A DNA stretch of 64,000 nucleotides from Endocalyx cinctus (Eukaryota; Ascomycota; Sordariomycetes; Amphisphaeriales; Apiosporaceae), in NCBI GenBank assembly GCA_001600455.1, contig BCKC01000004.1, positions 1,178,001-1,242,000 on the forward strand, given 5' to 3'. Each line of letters begins with the position of its first letter. Within the stretch, counting starts at the first letter, position 1. Both the position numbers and the translations under genes were made by a program. The notes beneath the pieces were generated by a model, which did not search any database, had not been told where the DNA came from, and worked only from the letters and a program-made list of their open reading frames with translations. Of this stretch, positions 6,980-23,438 are shown piece after piece.

Positions 6980-9900
6980 TCATCCCGTCTTCCACTGATC
7001 TAAGGCTTCAACTGGTCGTGACATATCTAACCCATGAGAATGGCTCTCCCATAAAGGCGAAAATAAAATAGCCAGGGTACGGTCACCCGGCGCAATATCT
7101 ACACATAATACCTCAACTCCTGGGTTAGGTAAGTCCACCATCCCGAGGGGAAGCGGAGGATCCCCAGGCAATCGTTCAGCTCTAGCAGTACTAAACACCA
7201 TATTAGGGGAACCTTGTAGAATAACTTTCATTATTTTCCCGTTCTGTGATAACTCTACAAAATCTGGGATTAGCTTTTGCTGTGAAGAATATGAGTTAAA
7301 TTACTTCACTTACGTGCGCTTCTGCCATCCTCGTCAATCAAGATGGCGGCTCTTGTATGCATCCTCCATTGACTCCCGTATGCAGCATTTCGGATCTCGT
7401 CCTGAATGAGCACTTGCTTTCGTTCACTGAGCATTCTCAGACCCCTATTTATTCTAGGACCACCATAGACGGATGTAAGATTAGCGATCCAGAAAGAATC
7501 GTCGTTATGCTCTGCTTTTTGAAAATGCACTTTCGGTACAGCCGCGACCAATTGGTTCGTCTGGTTGTATAATATCGTGTTTTGACCCGCCGTTCTAGTT
7601 TGGTAATAACGCCATCGGGTGCTATCCTGCGATTCTCCTGAGAAGTATCCGGTGGAGAGATAATCGCCATGACAGAGCTCGACGGCCCATCTCTCGCCCA
7701 TAGCGTCGAGGACGAAGTCTCCGGCGTCAAGGTCGCCGTCTATTCATATGTTATTTTCAATGAACTATTTTAACCCTTAATTTTATGTCTAATGATAGGT
7801 GAGTACTCACGTGTTTGATGACCGATCAACGCGCCAGCTTTCATAGCGACGAACAATCCCTCAGCAGAAGACCACGAACTCCGCATGGACACCCAGGAGC
7901 CCCGGGGGTCTTCAAAACTTCGGTCAAGCGGCATCGTCTCCGGCCGCTCTCCCGACGCCACATCGGTGTCATACCAGAGGATAGCGAGCGGATCCGCTGC
8001 CTCGTCCAACTCTCGCTGGTAGATAGTGTAGGTCGAGATGTTGAAGTAATCGCCGTAGAAAAGCATCGAGTTAGCAGATGCCGTGATCTTCTTTGGACCA
8101 CAGTCTCCATTGTCGAACTTTCCCGCCGGCCCCTGACTGTAGATGTGAAAGAGGCCGGTTTCCTTGATCGACGGGTTGGCCGTCAGAAGACCGAAATCGC
8201 TGCCGGTGGCGGCCAGGAGGGCCGATGCCATCTGCGCGTGAGCTTGGGTACCGAAGTGCCAGTAATCAGGCGTTTCCGTCCACGTGCCGTCAGATAACAC
8301 AGCATTTGCGCAGTATTCTCGTGCATTGTTGATAGCTAGGGGAAGAAGTTTTTCAGAAAGTCCTGTCCGGTCATTTCCATAAACAGCCAAGGAACCTAGA
8401 ATAATCCCATCATTTACGACACCTGAGATAATACCATTGGTTAGATTAGGTGCATAGAATTTCCGCTTATAGATAACTCACAATTCCAATTCCCCCTCAC
8501 GGACAGGAACCAGGCATCGTTATCGTATGCCTCCTGTGCTTTGGCTAGTCCAAGCGATAATATTGACCACATAATGGATTCTCTCTGGGACTCGCTCCAT
8601 TCATTATAAAGCCAATCGTAAGCAACAGCAAATGCAACTAGGAACTCTCCAACATCAAGCCAATGTCTAATTGTGATGTTGTTAGCTCATGCATATCGAG
8701 TATGTTAAAGGATGTAATTATAAATAAACTTACTGGCTGTTCCAATTGTCCCCTGCTGGACCGAAATACTGCGTGGAGTTTCCGGACGCTAATTGTAGAA
8801 AATCCCAGATAGAATTCTTCCATTTTTCATCTTGTGTAATCCGGTACGCGTACGCCCAATATTTCACCCGCAATTGAAACTCACGAGCGGTATCCAGAAC
8901 ACCCTCGGTATCCAAGGAGCCAAATGCCGTATAGTTAATCGGAGGCTGTGAATACATGTGCTCCGCTCGTTCTAAGACTGTTTCGTTCCATCGACTTAGA
9001 TATTTATCTTGATTTATAGACCTCCGTATTAGACTCTGCCACTTCTGCTTTCCTGCAATAAGTCTTGGATGAGAATTTCGAATAGGAATATCATCAACGT
9101 GAGTTAATTGTCCTGGTTTGTAACCTTGGGGCGAGGATGGTGTTTGGTGAGCTTCTGTTGCCTCTAATGCGGATTGTACTGGAACGTAAATAGATTTTGA
9201 AATAGATGGCACCCCATGCAAGTTGATAGAAAAGAGCATCCAGTACCCGGGGACCAAGATCCCTGAATCCTCTGGCATTATCATTTGATAACTCCAGTTT
9301 GTTCCTTGTTCTTTTCTTTTAATAGATGATTGTGTGCGCTGAAATAAATTTGTTTCGTCAGACACAGGTGAAGTCAGGATTAGTTGATGATCAAGAGGAA
9401 TACGGCGTTGGTCTGTGTTGATGGAATGTGTGGCGGATCCGTAACGGATCAAAGAAAAGGCACTGATCTTCTCACTGGTATCTACCACGAGTTGAGACCC
9501 TGGCGTAACAATGGTAGACGAAACGTTTTTTATGATGGGTCGACTTGCCAGATTGCGAGTCCTGGCCTGGAAGAGATATGGTGGGGAGTAAATTTGAATG
9601 CTGGGATGGTTGACCGATTCGTCTGCGCATTCATGCCAACATAGACCGCCACCTCCAGTCAGTACCGTGGCATCCGGGAGTAACAAAGCAACGCTGTGGT
9701 AGTTACGTGCTTCAGGTGATCTGGCCATAAGCCTGAATGATTTTGTGATTGGATCCCAGATTTCTGGGGTCCACGAGGAGTTGATATCAGCCCATTGCAT
9801 AGCATAACTAGCCCCACCGTTGGTGAAAACTTCGCCTGTTGGAAGCACGACGCTATTCGCATAAACCCGAGCGAAGTGCATTGGTGCGAGTTTCTCAACT

Positions 9901-10948
9901 CGGACATTCTCGAGCGGAGTCGATATCGTGATTAAATGAGCAGCCCTGGTACTGACTGCTGACGAGTAGCTTGTGGCACCTCCAAGAGTCAGAATCTTTC
10001 CGTTAAGGGCATCATACATAACAGCGTTTCCATTCATAGCATCCGGATCGGCTGCCCGTAGGCCAGCTGCGGCGTGAAATCCGTCGTTATTGACCCCATA
10101 CCAATTCATACGTGAAGAGGGACCGGCTTGAAATACAGTGTCATTCTTCCACGCAAACAACCAAGCGTGGTTGTCGGCGCAAAACGTGCCTCTGTCATCT
10201 TTTGTCATCATGGGTGCCACTGGACAACCAGACAGCCGGCGCCATGACTGACTAGCTGGGTCAAAGATTTCGCCGTCTTTGTCTGCCACCTGGTCGCCAC
10301 CGACACCGCCAGCCCAAGAACCCCCAATGGTAAATATACGACCATTTGAGAGAGTTGCCTGAGCGTGGTACCCTCGTCCGACCGTCATAGGAGACCCTGT
10401 GAGCCATTTTTCCAGACCGGGCTCGTATATGCTGACTTTGCCAGAAGATCTTCCCCCGCTGACAAATGGTCTGCCATGCGCGTCAAGTGAGAGACCAGGA
10501 CAAAACATACCGTGCTGAGTGTCTGACAGTCTGATTTTACTCACATTTCTCGTGGCAAGGTCAAATACAGCGGAAAAGGTAGCGTCCCAATTGCCATCGT
10601 TGCCGTCAAAGTGATCAACTCTATCGGCGGCCCACTAAGTAATATATTAGCTTTCGTGGCCTCCTAGCTAATACATTTATCATCTTGACGATATGAAATT
10701 GTTTATCTACGTACCGCAATTACTTTTTCTGTTTCAGGTAAAACTGCCACCGCAACGGGTACGAGGGGAAGGCGAATTTGAGGACCCCATTCTCCCACTT
10801 CGGCTGGCTCATCGCTTAGGTGAAGCCACGGAGAAAGTGAAAACGACGTATATGTATCTTTAAGACGAAATGTGTAAATAAGTATGAGTATCAAGAATGT
10901 CGTAGTCACTAGCAATAAGTTTCGTCTAAGAAGCAAGAAGAACGCCAT
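6980..10948 (-). CDS. Membrane-anchored fusion: galactose-oxidase-type copper radical oxidase + heparinase II/III-like lyase
   Basis: Six exons on the minus strand: 10948-10715, 10634-8734, 8666-8482, 8422-7811, 7739-7314 and 7263-6980, giving 1213 residues with consistent phase. Residues about 8-28 are a hydrophobic signal anchor after RR, so the rest should be outside the cytosol. Residues about 90-565 form a Kelch-type AA5 oxidase. The family's copper-radical residues are all present: Cys123 in MFCPG and Tyr167 in GRGYH (thioether pair, 44 apart as in galactose oxidase), Trp185 in GGSW, Tyr390-His391 in RNYHS and His481 in SATHSINTDQRR. After a short linker, about residue 600 (HPRLIAGKQKW) starts an alpha-toroid like that of heparinase/alginate-lyase proteins (TPDYWHFGTQAHAQMASAL). 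The C-terminal heparinase II/III beta domain begins with HGDLDAGDFVLDAMGERW. The oxidase/lyase junction lies inside exon 2 with no stop or intron, so the fusion is not a prediction artefact. Oxidation of a primary alcohol and glycan cleavage are inferred from the families; the substrate is unknown. Confidence 0.88.
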
Positions 10949-12940: not shown

Positions 12941-15626
12941 ATGCCTATTATCATCGGAAATTCTCGTATTAATTTCCCCTTTCGAAAAAATAATTCTTTC
13001 AAATACAAAGATGAGAACACTTTCGTAACAGAAAAGGTTCTCGACAAGCAAGAATCCGAAGATGGAGAACCCATCAGCCCTACCTATGGTTCAATGCAAT
13101 ATGTTCTCGATAGGGATAGAGTATACGCCATTCGAGAACTCGACCAAGACGAGTCTCCTGATGTCATGCGAACGTCTCCCCTGAAACGCTCTGCTACTCG
13201 CCTGCTGCCACTGACTGCACTGCTGAGTCCAATCATCTCTTCATATGTCACCTACATTCAAGTAAAATTCTTTTTGGTGAACATCCAAAGAGGTACTTTG
13301 TCACCGGCAAGAATTAGCATAGGTTGGATAATGTTGGGGGTCAATCTGGTTTTGATGCGTACACCTCCATACCCGCATTATCTAATTGGATATAGACTAA
13401 CAGGGGAGACAGTACTCACGATACCGATGGGCTTGGGCAAAACTTTTTCTGTTCTCGGAACGTACCGTCCTCGTCTTCGCCTTGTTGGGGATGATGTGCC
13501 GTTTATCGACGTGCTCATTCCTTGCTGTAAAGAATCTATAGATATTGTCCAGGATACTGCTATTGCTGCACTGGCACAGGACTACCCTCGAGACAAATTC
13601 CGGGTAATTATAGCTGACGATGGGTCATCGGCTAGCTTACGAGCTTGGGCTGCTGAAATGGGACGAGAGAACTGTAAGTTTTTTCTCTCTTTTTCTTTGG
13701 AGTACTTATTTACTTTCTACACTTTGTTCTTGGGTTTCATGCGGACCCAAAGTGCCCTTGAACGTATTATCAACCATAAATCGAAAATAAGACAATTTTC
13801 TTCAATTTCTCCCAGGCCCCAAGAAGAATCAAAGTACTGATTTTGTTATTCGTGTAGTATATTATGTTTCTCGAACCAAAAATGGACCTTCCGGATATAA
13901 AGCAGGCAACTTAAACCACGCCATCAAGTGGATCAGAGAACGCGAGCCAAAACGCGTTGCTGAATTTATGGCTTCTTTGGATGCCGATATGATACCCAAA
14001 AAGCATTGGCTACGGTCTATTGCCGCACATATTGTCCGTGATACTCGAGTCGGTATGGTATGCCCCACACAAGTAAGTTGGCATTATATCTTCTCCTTTT
14101 TCTCTGTCTCTTCTCTAGATGATATATCATCTAATTAGAATAAAACAATTAACAAAAACCAGAGTTTCTACAACGTTCCTCAAGATGATCCTATTTACCA
14201 GAGCCAAGGACATTCATGGAGATGTCTAGATATCTTGAGAGACTTGTGTGGTGGAGCATGGAATACGGGTTCTGGTTTCATCGGTAAGCAAGTACAACGA
14301 TGCTATTTCCTTAACTTATCTTATTTCCGGACGTCGCTATTGGTGAATTTTATATTATAATGAACTATTCGACATTTTCTCTGAAACTTGATACTAATTA
14401 ATTGTTGCTTTCCAGTACGCTACGAAGCACTTGCCGATATTAATGGCTTCCCCGAGGCCTTCCTGATTGAGGATGTCCATAGCTCGATGCTGATGATGGC
14501 CAAGGGTTTGAAAACTGCTTACCTACCAGAAGCCCTCCAAAACGGCTTGATACCGGAAAGTTACCTGGGACATATTAAACAGTTTCGCCGATGGGTATGT
14601 TCACAATCCCCATCATAGCTAATGGGTTCATTGGTAAATCTTCTTTCCTGCTAATCAAATTATTTAAGAATATCGGTGGGGTCCAATCAGCGATTTGGTT
14701 TAGGTTTCACCTAGACAAATCACGAACTGGGTACGAAACCTTTCGCCAGAGAGTTCTGGGGTTGACTAATGGTGTCGCTGTGTCTCTCTTCACACTTACT
14801 ATGACGCTCAACCTTATTGCTACCCCAATCTACTTATTCGCAGCGGTACCGTCGATGTACTTCCTGACCAAAGAGCATATGCAATTTATTCTTCGAGCAC
14901 AATGTATACTAACGTTGGCTAAATGGACCAACTCATTTCATGCTGGTATGATGTCCAGCTACCGGTTGTCTATGAGAGAAGACGCTATTGGCATTTTTAT
15001 GTCCCCTTGTGAGTTTACCTCCACAGGGAATGAAAAAAAAAAATTCTAATATATTTATCTCTATTATAGACTTCTCAATTGACATATTGCGCGGGTTTAT
15101 CTTGCCAAAATGGCTTGGTGGAATAGAGCCCGGATTCACACCAACCGGGAGCATATACTCCAAAGTCCACGAACGAGATGCCTCTCGTCGAGCACCTCTG
15201 TCCACAAGGATCCGGCACACTCTGTTTGAATGCGGAGCTTGGTTTCATCTCACGGTCGTCATTGGCATATTGACCGGCGTCTCCTGGCGCCTTTACCAAA
15301 TCCTAAATGCCCACCCGGTCGGTGCGAGCGGGACCCGAGACTGGCATGCGTTGGCTGTTGAGCTGTTAAAATATGTTGCCTTCCCACCTCTTGGATGGCT
15401 GGAGATTTTATCTGCCTGCATGACCCCGATCAACTATATTCTTAGCCCTCCTAATATGCCACCGCGCGACAAGTTGTTAGGCGAGAGGGACGGAAATGGG
15501 GCGAGACACCCGCTCCCCGAGCACGAGGATGTTCGGTGGTCATCGTGGAGCTTTGGATATGACCAACTGTATTCCATCTGTCTCATATATACTGCTGTGG
15601 TCTTCGTGGGAACATGGTGGCTCTGA
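12941..15626 (+). CDS. Cellulose-synthase-like family 2 glycosyltransferase (processive polysaccharide synthase)
   Basis: Six exons: 12941-13673, 13816-14072, 14163-14283, 14416-14594, 14669-15008 and 15070-15626, giving 728 residues. The first ATG in the frame (12941) was chosen. All processive GT2 motifs are present in order: the first Asp in VIIADDGSS, DxD in ASLDADMIP, the ED motif in LIEDVHSSM, and Q-x-x-R-W as QFRRW, completed by splicing to NIGGVQ. Two hydrophobic segments precede the catalytic domain and several follow it (for example the Leu/Ile-rich stretch around genomic 14770-14880 and the segments after 15220), the usual layout for synthesis on the cytosolic face with export through the membrane. 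Fungal relatives include mixed-linkage glucan synthase Tft1/CelA and the hyphal GT2 proteins; the polymer made here cannot be told from sequence. It is divergently paired with the oxidase-lyase fusion. Confidence 0.9.
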
Positions 15627-17201: not shown

Positions 17202-18720
17202 ATGATGTATCACCAACGGGTCTTTTCCTACCTCTTCCTCTCTCATATTGTCTTAATATGTGCGGCTGTACCCATACAAGGAAGCCAGTGCGAGGCGTCG
17301 CGTTATGAGGGCAAGCATCGGGCTTACATCGCGACCGACATCAGCAATGAGCCGGATGACCAGATGAGCTTGGTCCGATTGCTCACTTACGCCAATGAGA
17401 TCGACATTCAGGGCATCGGCGTCGTAACTTCAGTTTGGAAGAACGACTCCATCGATGTAACGACCGTTCACGAGGTAATTAACGATGGTTATGCCCAGGT
17501 CGTGTCGAACCTCAACGCCAACGTCCCTCTTGCTGGTAAATATCCGACAGCCGAGAGTCTTATCTCTAAAGTAAAATCCGGTCATCCGGTATACGGCCTC
17601 GCGGCGCTCGAGCTGTCTCCCAGCGACGCGGCGCTCTCGCTAATAGCTGCCGCCGATGCTTCTTCTCGCGATGATCCCCTTTGGGTCTGCCTCTGGGGCG
17701 GTGCAGGCGTTCTTGCCGAAGCGCTGAACCACGTTTCCAAGACTCGAACATCAGACAAGGTCAGCGGTTTTATCGAAAAATTGAAGGTTTACTCCATCTC
17801 GGATCAGGATGACGCGGGTTCATGGTTGAGGGTCAACTATCCGTCGCTTTACTACATCGTTTCGCTTCACGGGTTCAACGAGTACACGCAGGCCTCGTGG
17901 AACGGCATCTCGGGCGAGCTGTTCCGCCACTTCGACAAGGGAGGCCCGGATACCTCCCTCGTCACCAACGACTGGCTGCAGACGCACGTCCGTCTCGGAA
18001 AGTTGGGCGCCCACTACCTGAACTGGACTTATATCATGGAAGGAGACACGCCGTCCTTCTTCCCTCTCATCCGCAACGGGCTCGGCGACCCCGATCATCC
18101 GGAGTGGGGCGGCTGGGGAGGCCGTTTCCTGCCCGTCGACGCCTCCGGAAGGTACCCCGTCTTCAGCGACGCCGGAGACGCCGTCGTAGGCCAGAACGGC
18201 GAGATCTTCGTCAGTAGCTTCGCGACTATCTGGCAGTGGCGTAAGGCCTACCAGTACGACTTTGCGGCGCGCATGCAGTGGTCTCTCAACGGCGATTACA
18301 CCAAGAACAACCACTATCCGGTGGTGGTCTTAAACGACACCTGCGGGCTCGACGTCATGAAGGTCCCATACAAGCTTGGCGAGACCATAGTGATGGATGC
18401 GTCGAAGAGTTGGGACCCGGACGGCGACGCACTCAGCTATAAGTGGGTCCATTACCGCGACGTGACGGCTCGCATGGAGGAAGGCCCAATTGATCCGGTG
18501 AGCCTCAACGTCACAATCACAGCACTGGACAACACCGGCGGTTTGGTGAGCCTCGAACCTAAAGATAACAGTGTAAGTATATCCATCCATCTTAAAAAAT
18601 GAAAGCCCTGTTCTAATTAGATAATATATACAGACTATGCACATTATATTATCAGTCGAGGACGACCGAGAGATCGGTATGACCTCTTACCGCCGCATCA
18701 TCCTCGAGCCTACCGCATAG
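17202..18720 (+). CDS. Secreted Sde182/DUF1593 family protein (nucleoside-hydrolase-like fold, 'cellulose-binding')
   Basis: Two exons, 17202-18572 and 18634-18720, 485 residues. A signal peptide of about 26 residues ends near the AAVPIQG segment. The N-terminal domain carries the DUF1593 hallmark ATDISNEPDDQMSLVRLL, an acidic motif like the metal site of nucleoside hydrolases. A C-terminal beta domain starts near residue 395 (DASKSWDPDGDALSYKW). Splicing replaces the apparent end at 18602 and restores the family C-terminus, with TMHIILSVEDD followed by TSYRRIIL. Family members are annotated as cellulose-binding or nucleoside-hydrolase-like; catalytic activity is unproven. It lies in the same block as the GT2 and oxidase-lyase genes and may act on extracellular carbohydrate. 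ATG 17202 is followed directly by a second ATG, either of which could serve. Confidence 0.88.
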
Positions 18721-22036: not shown

Positions 22037-23438
22037 TCACACGGGAATCGTGCTGTTATGCGCGATGCAAGGTCCGTAGAAGCTCGTGGTAAGCGAATCG
22101 GTCGTGTTCTTGACGGCTTGGCCTAACTCCGACGTACCACACTTGAGGCCGAGAACGAAGCTACCAGCCATGACGTTGGCGAGATAAGGTCCGGTATGTG
22201 TGTCTGCTTACGATGATTAATGTCTTTAAATAACGGCATATGCATTGCATTTAAGTGGATTAAAAGACTTACGATCGTTGGGGTATCCGGAATTAACGGT
22301 TGACGAACCTAGATTCGTCATCGCCTGCGCCGCGTATTCGCCATGAGGTACGTGATAAACTCCCTCCTCCGGTCCACCTAGTTGAGATGCGGCGAGCCTG
22401 TTCGTCAAATTATTTATTAGACTCCATGAAATGTTTTTGAGTGCTTAAAGTTCGTTGGGCAAGACCAGGGTAGAATTACCATGAATAATAATCAAATCGA
22501 TATGGGCCCCAAGAGCATGCCCCCGTCTCGCAGATGTTGTTAGGGGTCGGTGAGCTTAGAGACTCATGTTAGCATTACTATATCGACGAACGAGTTATAT
22601 ATATATATATATATATATCCCATAATACACTTTACCTCAAAATGACCTTGGCTCCCTTGGCGAGGAACAAGTTCGCGGCGTTTTTGTAATAAGCTGGGTA
22701 TGTGAGGACCGTCTCCGTGACGCCATCGTACACCTATCCATTCAAGAATTCATCGTCAGTCCCTAGAATTTTTTTTTTTTCGCCTCACCGCCAGAAGGTT
22801 AACACTCACCGTCGAGCAAGTTTGATCTCCATCTCCAAAGCAGTCCGTGCGCCCGTTATCTGTCGGGGTCAAGCTGCCACCATCGTTGTGACCAAATTCG
22901 ATGACGACCCAATCCCCGCTATTAACCTCGTCCGCGACAGATTGGAACCTGCCCTCTCTGGTGAAGCTCCTGGCACTACGGCCGCCAATAGCGTCGTTGT
23001 GAACCACAACGCTGGCGTCGAAGCTGTACGCTAAAAATTCNCCCCNCCCCTCGGTTCCTGAACCGCCTCCAGCCCTAGCCATAGTGCTGTCGCCGCAGAG
23101 GTGGATCGCGAATGAACCGGTCGGGGCGGAGCCGGTCGCCGTCTTCGTTGTCGTTAACACCGTGGTGGGAGCTGCGGTCCCCGGAACGCATTGGGAGTAG
23201 TAATCGTTCGAGACTCTGCCAAAATTGAAACGCTTAGATCATTCTTCTCGATGATATTTTTCTTCCCCCCTTTTTCTCTCGCAGCTTTGGTAGAAGGTGT
23301 TACGTACTGACAGACTGCACCGGAGACGCAAGCTGTCTCTCCGGACCATCCAATTCCTCCGCATTGTCCATAGAGTGGCTGCGCAGCTTGCGCAAGTCCC
23401 AAAAGAGACAGTGCCCATAGTGATTTAAGGGAGATCAT
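22037..23438 (-). CDS. Rhamnogalacturonan acetylesterase-like SGNH hydrolase (CE12) with N-terminal CBM1
   Basis: Six exons on the minus strand: 23438-23308, 23215-22810, 22733-22636, 22554-22480, 22397-22273 and 22203-22037, giving 333 residues. Residues 1-20 are a signal peptide. Residues about 21-57 are a fungal cellulose-binding CBM1 ([18 protein letters not shown], then SNDYYSQC after splicing). A short Thr-rich linker follows. The SGNH esterase core has the GDS serine block ([10 protein letters not shown]), the glycine block AIGGRSARS, the asparagine block FGHNDGG and the catalytic His in NDHTHTGPY, which forms only after the last splice. It is expected to be secreted and to remove acetyl groups from pectin backbone while tethered to cellulose. 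Two N bases (23041 and 23046) fall in neighbouring codons. The intron at 22555-22635 holds a TA repeat. Confidence 0.92.
22596..22618. repeat. TA dinucleotide microsatellite
   Basis: About eleven TA units, lying inside an intron of the acetylesterase gene. Confidence 0.9.

Follow-up and report, generated by a model that had tools for sequence, protein, structure and literature searches.

A fungal gene joining a putative AA5-type copper radical oxidase to a PL35-like lyase beside a GT2 synthase gene in Endocalyx cinctus

A single open gene for an oxidase and a lyase

A 64,000-nucleotide stretch of the Endocalyx cinctus genome (assembly GCA_001600455.1, contig BCKC01000004.1, positions 1,178,001 to 1,242,000 of the forward strand), referred to here as the window, contains a gene in which a copper radical oxidase is joined to a polysaccharide lyase. 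This gene occupies positions 6980 to 10948 of the minus strand and, in a hand-made splice model, has six exons (10948-10715, 10634-8734, 8666-8482, 8422-7811, 7739-7314 and 7263-6980) encoding a protein of 1213 residues. Splice sites were picked by hand with the guidance of frame and homology; the frame is kept throughout, and introns 1 to 5 (80, 67, 59, 71 and 50 nt) all have GT-AG ends. The protein consists of an N-terminal hydrophobic segment, an oxidase domain (approximately residues 50 to 563), a linker (approximately 564 to 597) and a PL35-like lyase domain (approximately 598 to 1213). Its above-cut-off Pfam matches were Kelch repeats, PF09118 and PF07940, with no carbohydrate-binding module among them, and both halves matched solved structures in phmmer searches of PDB chains. 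The sequence analysis confirmed that one open gene encodes both predicted enzymes, with both sets of catalytic residues complete, and the in-frame splice model bore out the coordinates, strand, exon number and phase given in a preliminary description of this DNA.

The boundary between the two domains lies inside exon 2, in agreement with the earlier placement of it within a single 1.9-kb exon. This exon of 1901 nt is open for 634 codons, whereas the longest open stretch in any of the six frames of 500 mononucleotide shuffles was 204 codons. Met544 marks the end of the oxidase domain and the next methionine, residue 638, is already within the lyase domain; as there is no methionine between these two residues, the lyase would lack a start of its own at its N terminus. 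The linker (positions 9078 to 9179, minus strand) contains no methionine and is poorly conserved by comparison with the flanking domains. Neither the oxidase nor the lyase exon had a second close copy among the matches in the E. cinctus genome, such counts being lower bounds.

Distribution of the fusion

Homologues were sought with the whole protein (120 listed of at least 795 matches) and with the boundary segment alone (120 listed of 201 matches). Among the 120 listed for the boundary segment, full coverage of it was found only in P0001, P0003, P0004 and P0005. P0001, the hypothetical protein E8E14_004610 of Neopestalotiopsis sp. 37M, has both domains in the same order and with the same boundary and is 60% identical to the window protein in the aligned parts of each domain; in the database its model is truncated on both the N-terminal and the C-terminal side and bears no functional name. 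The other three are metagenome open reading frames (ORFs) that cross the boundary in frame, running from the oxidase through the linker into the first part of the lyase. P0004 and P0005 stop exactly at the position of intron 2 of the window gene, and P0003 continues for 18 residues beyond it. Identities of these four proteins to the window protein were 57 to 60% for the oxidase, 52 to 60% for the aligned parts of the lyase and 12 to 29% for the linker.

It is very improbable that two adjacent genes have been misread as one, with a misleading open boundary and two transcripts. The presence of unfused oxidase and lyase genes on one contig in Periconia and Xylogone favors such an explanation; the 634-codon exon set against a maximum of 204 in shuffled sequence, the absence of a methionine between residues 544 and 638 and the in-frame boundary in four other proteins, two of which end exactly at intron 2, all argue against it.

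In a lyase tree of 27 chosen rows, the window protein and P0001 were sisters (support, 98/88), while in an oxidase tree of 51 chosen rows the five fusions grouped weakly (92/24); several tree rows are metagenome ORFs. On these comparisons, the fusion appears to be a small family whose single origin is likely but not proven. The preliminary description gave this architecture as not known from a described enzyme, and no description of an oxidase-lyase fusion or of a three-gene set was found in titles or abstract openings, covering part of the longer listings. The architecture is nevertheless not a singleton, being shared with Neopestalotiopsis sp. 37M and with three metagenome ORFs that cross the boundary. 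Passages of PMC13390370 describe AA5 enzymes that carry WSC and PAN modules, with no lyase fusion among them. The high-scoring P0002 (Microbotryomycetes sp. JL201, 1643 residues) was considered as a second full fusion and rejected. Read by eye, P0002 has no oxidase and contains two tandem PL35-like lyases, each following a hydrophobic stretch, and it may represent two merged genes.

The oxidase domain

The AA5-type copper radical oxidase domain spans positions 9180 to 10801 of the minus strand and contains intron 1 (10714-10635). Residues 50 to 562 aligned with galactose oxidase chains with a best E value of 9e-124. The phmmer alignments placed C123, Y167, W185, Y390, H391 and H481 opposite their galactose oxidase counterparts (hand-derived codons 10502-10500, 10370-10368 and 10316-10314 for the first three, 9701-9696 for Y390-H391 and 9428-9426 for H481), the same residues that had been proposed beforehand as the catalytic set. 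The active-site spacings of 44, 18 and 205 are, as also claimed, identical to those given by the published galactose oxidase positions 228/272/290/495 (Table 1, PMC6519835); the His-His spacing is 90 versus 85. The sequence features of an AA5 enzyme, namely the Cys-Tyr pair, axial Tyr, two His ligands, stacking Trp and similarity to the propeller and E-set domains, are all present, and the subfamily label AA5_2-like is taken solely from the nearest relatives. No PF07250 match was reported for the window protein; a PF07250 hit in the same genome was traced to another gene on contig C1 and discarded.

In the oxidase tree the window oxidase fell within a clade of 15 rows (support, 100/100), and the cofactor residues were conserved in all 14 other members. 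According to Table 1 of PMC6519835, galactose oxidase binds its galactose through Arg330 and Tyr329, and its Phe464 is stacked against the catalytic Tyr495. The equivalent of Arg330 was Arg in none of the 14 other clade members versus 82 of 108 oxidases from outside the clade (a comparison set that omits P0200, which is a lyase), and the equivalent of Tyr329 was never Tyr in the 14, all of which have Phe or Ile. In the window oxidase these positions are occupied by Cys230 and Phe229, so that both ligands of a strict galactose 6-oxidase are absent. Two further positions set the clade apart: Phe464 is replaced by Trp in 14/14 members versus 0/108 others (one gap), and Pro463 is replaced by Gln in 14/14 versus 4/108. 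No F5/8 module was present in any of the 14 other members, according to the match listings. The domain is a galactose oxidase relative in its cofactor residues and not in its galactose ligands. Due to the loss of Arg330 and the replacement of Phe464 by Trp in this clade, galactose is probably not the substrate of the window oxidase, and a different primary alcohol is expected.

Bacterial AA5 relatives were also encountered. P0201 has 43 to 46% identity to the tested unfused members of the fungal clade, P0195 and P0227 have Gln at position 463 like the clade and lack the Trp that the clade has at 464, and a further relative is present at positions 993 to 2426 of bacterial locus L015.

The lyase domain

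The lyase domain (positions 6983 to 9077, minus strand) contains the above-cut-off PF07940 match, and its phmmer matches include 8khv, 8khw and 9o3q. Residues 598 to 1211 matched the PL35 lyase 8khv with an E value of 1.2e-48; PL35 chains were detected at 5.5e-49 with a single lyase sequence and at 5.7e-79 with a profile built from 21 fungal lyases that are not fused. Three PL35 chains ranked first in each case, far ahead of the PL21 heparinase II (8.6e-07) with the single sequence and of the PL15 oligo-alginate lyase (5.3e-12) with the profile. For 3e7j the PL family number is the one that we take it to have. The number for 3a0o is from Table 4 of PMC12088678.

The catalytic triplet of the PL35 enzyme GAGase II is Asn192, Tyr246 and His401 (PMC12088678). 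Its equivalents are N771 (hand-derived codon 8491-8489), Y827 (8264-8262) and H978 (7811 plus 7739-7738), the last being hidden in a six-frame reading because intron 4 splits its codon. All three were conserved in 115/115 lyase homologues, a set reached from 121 sequences of which 118 matched and 3 were dropped as short matches, with P0001 included. The fused lyase also keeps the equivalents of Arg94, His136 and Asp405 of PL35 enzymes, while Arg87 and Arg88 had no counterpart in a pairwise alignment. The domain looks active, as judged from these residues, and by similarity to PL35 structures together with the catalytic triplet it is nearest to the PL35 glycosaminoglycan lyases rather than to classical heparinases. 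The earlier claim of a full heparinase II/III-like module is supported with respect to the complete active site and revised with respect to the nearest kin.

PL35-like lyases of basidiomycetes (rows among P0014 to P0120) are widespread, have an N-terminal hydrophobic segment and retain the triad.

The N-terminal segment

A hydrophobic segment at about residues 6 to 29 (positions 10862 to 10933, minus strand) was taken as a signal anchor, from which a type II topology would follow. Hydropathy, averaged over 19 residues, peaked at 2.17 for residues 11 to 29 and was at most 1.36 everywhere past residue 45. An N-terminal segment of this kind (mean of at least 1.59 in the first 45 residues) was found in 10 of the 14 other members of the oxidase clade; in the remaining four, the models of P0001, P0123 and P0125 begin inside the domain and the segment of P0004 is at residue 83. 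Anchors and cleaved signal peptides are not distinguishable by hydropathy on its own, and P0128, a secreted-type oxidase outside the clade, also reached 1.61 near its start. The signal anchor that had been claimed thus stands as a hydrophobic signature that may instead be a cleaved signal peptide. An anchor probably holds the fusion protein in the cell membrane.

Six of six tested unfused ascomycete lyases have an N-terminal hydrophobic segment (at least 1.53) of their own; the fused lyase has none. This difference bears on whether the two activities are related at all. The oxidase might mainly supply H2O2 or aldehydes for cross-linking, with trimming or release of chains by the lyase as a separate activity; the two would share a location, and neither would depend on what the other makes. 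The unconserved linker (12 to 29% identity) and the existence of unfused relatives of both domains are in keeping with this explanation, which we consider doubtful given that the fusion has been kept in the window and in Neopestalotiopsis with domains 60% identical and that the fused lyase has no hydrophobic N terminus. Retention of the fusion and absence of an N-terminal segment from the fused lyase fit a benefit of physical coupling but are no proof of it.

The neighboring GT2 gene and other features of the window

Two kilobases from the fusion gene, and divergently oriented, is a GT2 cellulose-synthase-like synthase gene (positions 12941 to 15626, plus strand). This neighbor, like the contig sharing in other fungi described below, is an addition to the preliminary description. 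A hand-made splice model gave six exons (12941-13673, 13816-14072, 14163-14283, 14416-14594, 14669-15008 and 15070-15626) and a product of 728 residues. The protein contains the motifs ADDG, DAD, IED and QFRRW, which we take to be of the processive-synthase type, and had above-cut-off matches to Pfam GT2 models. Its solved relatives at E values up to 0.01 were bacterial cellulose synthases only (best, 1.4e-20). Downstream of it, a coding stretch at 17202 to 18602 of the plus strand matched PF07632 (Sde182, named as cellulose-binding and nucleoside-hydrolase-like; Pfam E value, 3.1e-97), and this gene is a possible third member of the locus.

Single N bases occur at window positions 23041, 23046 and 26702; the first two fall in an ORF (22756-23238) that by eye resembles a GDSL-type esterase.

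Oxidase, lyase and GT2 genes on shared contigs

A search for GT2 homologues, from a capped set of candidates, gave at least 63 matches. Contig sharing was judged by eye across the match listings, as the same species with a contig of equal base count. In Xylogone PMI_703, a GT2 (P0237), an oxidase (P0127) and a lyase (P0009) are on one contig of 9083828 bases. A GT2 and a lyase share a contig in Phaeosphaeria MPI-PUGE-AT-0046c (P0238 and P0012; 1043029 bases) and in Thozetella PMI_491 (P0254 and P0007; 1613493 bases), a GT2 and an oxidase do so in Colletotrichum truncatum (P0239 and P0149; 4568912 bases) and an oxidase and a lyase in Periconia macrospinosa (P0126 and P0015; 255999 bases). The GT2 and lyase were thus together in all three species common to both lists (Xylogone, Phaeosphaeria and Thozetella), and the oxidase and lyase in both of two (Xylogone and Periconia). 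By a hand estimate that assumes 40-Mb genomes and no paralogues, and is a rough guide, five such coincidences would arise by chance with a probability of about 1e-7. Other ascomycetes, then, seem to keep oxidase, lyase and synthase as a set of separate genes.

A bacterial origin of the pairing was considered and rejected: fungal profiles for the lyase and the GT2, run on the DNA of the best 80 of 205 bacterial loci with an AA5 relative (some of them short contigs) in a search not aimed at GlxA, detected a lyase in 0/80 and a GT2 in 3/80.

An alternative is that the fusion protein is a catabolic surface enzyme, with oxidase and lyase acting on a foreign acidic polysaccharide from the environment and the GT2 being incidental. 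Uronate glycans are broken down by the PL35 lyases of bacteria (PMC12088678, PMC11262172), and related fungal lyases can occur outside the cell, since PL35-annotated proteins are listed in exoproteomes or secretomes of wood-decay fungi (PMC9499651, PMC8052766). Contigs are shared with a GT2 in four genera, the N-terminal segment is anchor-like (though a cleaved signal is possible) and a carbohydrate-binding module was absent from the Pfam matches, all of which make a catabolic role unlikely.

A proposed mechanism

We propose, with confidence no higher than middling, that the fusion protein is a synthase-associated, two-enzyme protein of the cell surface that edits the polysaccharide made by the neighboring GT2. 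The N-terminal anchor would tether the protein to the membrane close to the synthase. C6-OH primary alcohols of the emerging glycan would be oxidized by the copper radical oxidase with production of H2O2, and the PL35-like domain would break the chain by beta-elimination at residues carrying, or given, an electron-withdrawing C6 group. The fusion would then be a joined form of the oxidase, lyase and synthase gene set. Membrane anchoring, the sharing of one glycan, the order of the steps, formation of a complex and the coupling of oxidation to cleavage are parts of this proposal that we infer.

A more specific and more tentative version is that of a single-chain oxidative lyase, in which the oxidase makes a C6 aldehyde or uronate on a neutral beta-linked glycan of the GT2 and the fused lyase then cuts. 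The aldehyde (or uronate) would acidify H5 and permit beta-elimination in the PL35-like site, whose Tyr and His could catalyze elimination where a C6-aldehyde lies within the chain, or cleave at a uronate derived from it. Products of galactose oxidase undergo base-catalyzed beta-elimination to unsaturated aldehydes and partly proceed to uronic acids (PMC3388858); in the study concerned, this was a chemical elimination on terminal galactose, promoted by heat and alkali.

Several observations weigh against an editing role beside the synthase. For the lyase, Gly takes the place of the second carboxylate-site Asn (Asn191) in 114/115 homologues. The manganese ligands His403, Asp405, Asp421 and His457 of GAGase II correspond to D980, D982, E998 and Q1030, with only Asp405 kept; of the 115 homologues, 101 have Asp and 12 have Asn in place of His403, and 113 have Gln in place of His457, although this ligand set is known from two bacterial PL35 enzymes and is not known to define the family. 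Lyases without a fused oxidase are, moreover, common in basidiomycetes among the matches listed. For the synthase, a crude hydropathy scan detected only two transmembrane-like segments, and a second GT2 of the E. cinctus genome (contig C10, positions 7382 to 9287 of locus L013), belonging to the same clade as the window GT2, had no oxidase or lyase-exon match nearby, as also judged from the ORFs by eye.

With respect to gene sharing, a common contig is not adjacency, some of these contigs being megabases long, and GT2 and oxidase were together in only two of six shared species (Xylogone and C. truncatum). The oxidases of the four failing species (C. chlorophyti, Paraphoma, Microdochium and Sarocladium) are outside the 15-row clade, and the Sarocladium pair may stem from different assemblies. 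In a GT2 tree of 30 of the 63 matches plus the two E. cinctus genes, the GT2s on shared contigs were not strict orthologues of the window GT2: that of Thozetella was nearer to the second E. cinctus GT2 and that of Xylogone was at the base of a 19-row GT2 clade. This limits our confidence in the proposal. The Truncatella angustata GT2 paired weakly with the window GT2 (82/53), and no fusion of this species was among the 120 of 795 matches listed; conversely, Neopestalotiopsis has the fusion and no GT2 among the 63 matches obtained from the capped candidates.

If the proposal is correct, the locus would be the fungal equivalent of the CslA-GlxA machinery of bacteria, differing in that oxidase and cutter are one protein, and would provide a biological setting for a clade of copper radical oxidases. 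It would also suggest how a lyase could cut a neutral glycan, a polymer made without uronic acid. The position of the fusion gene beside a cellulose-synthase-like gene suggests that the fungus may edit a surface polysaccharide while making it. Since related fungi have the genes in both fused and separate form, coupling of oxidation and cleavage is open to direct test.

Comparison with known systems

The window oxidase resembles Fusarium galactose oxidase and the AA5_2 group in its Kelch propeller and E-set and in having equivalents of Cys228, Tyr272, Trp290, Tyr495, His496 and His581. It differs in the absence of the F5/8 (CBM32-type) module, the hydrophobic N terminus, the fused lyase and the alterations of its clade at Arg330, Tyr329, Phe464 and Pro463. 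Similarly, the lyase can be aligned over its entire domain with the PL35 lyases GAGase II (8KHV), GAGase VII (8KHW) and chondroitinase (9O3Q) but departs from them at Asn191, His403 and His457 and in being fused to an oxidase.

In Streptomyces, cellulose is made by a complex of the synthase CslA with the radical copper oxidase GlxA, which has an N-terminal transmembrane helix (PMC11022532). The conserved locus includes, as its third member, a gene for an endoglucanase, and fungi are the probable source of glxA (PMC3543389). The GlxA model was the only match in an NCBIfam scan of the oxidase exon, at 130 bits versus a cut-off of 800, and as this equivalog cut-off was not reached we suggest only that the fungal oxidase may work like GlxA. 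The fungal locus would parallel CslA, GlxA and the endoglucanase in that a GT2 gene adjoins the gene for an AA5-type oxidase with a putative N-terminal anchor, proposed from hydropathy alone, and with a glycan cutter, and the logic of the two systems may be the same. They differ in that the fungal cutter would be a lyase fused to the oxidase instead of a separate endoglucanase and in that the fungal GT2 and fusion genes are divergent, unlike the Streptomyces operon.

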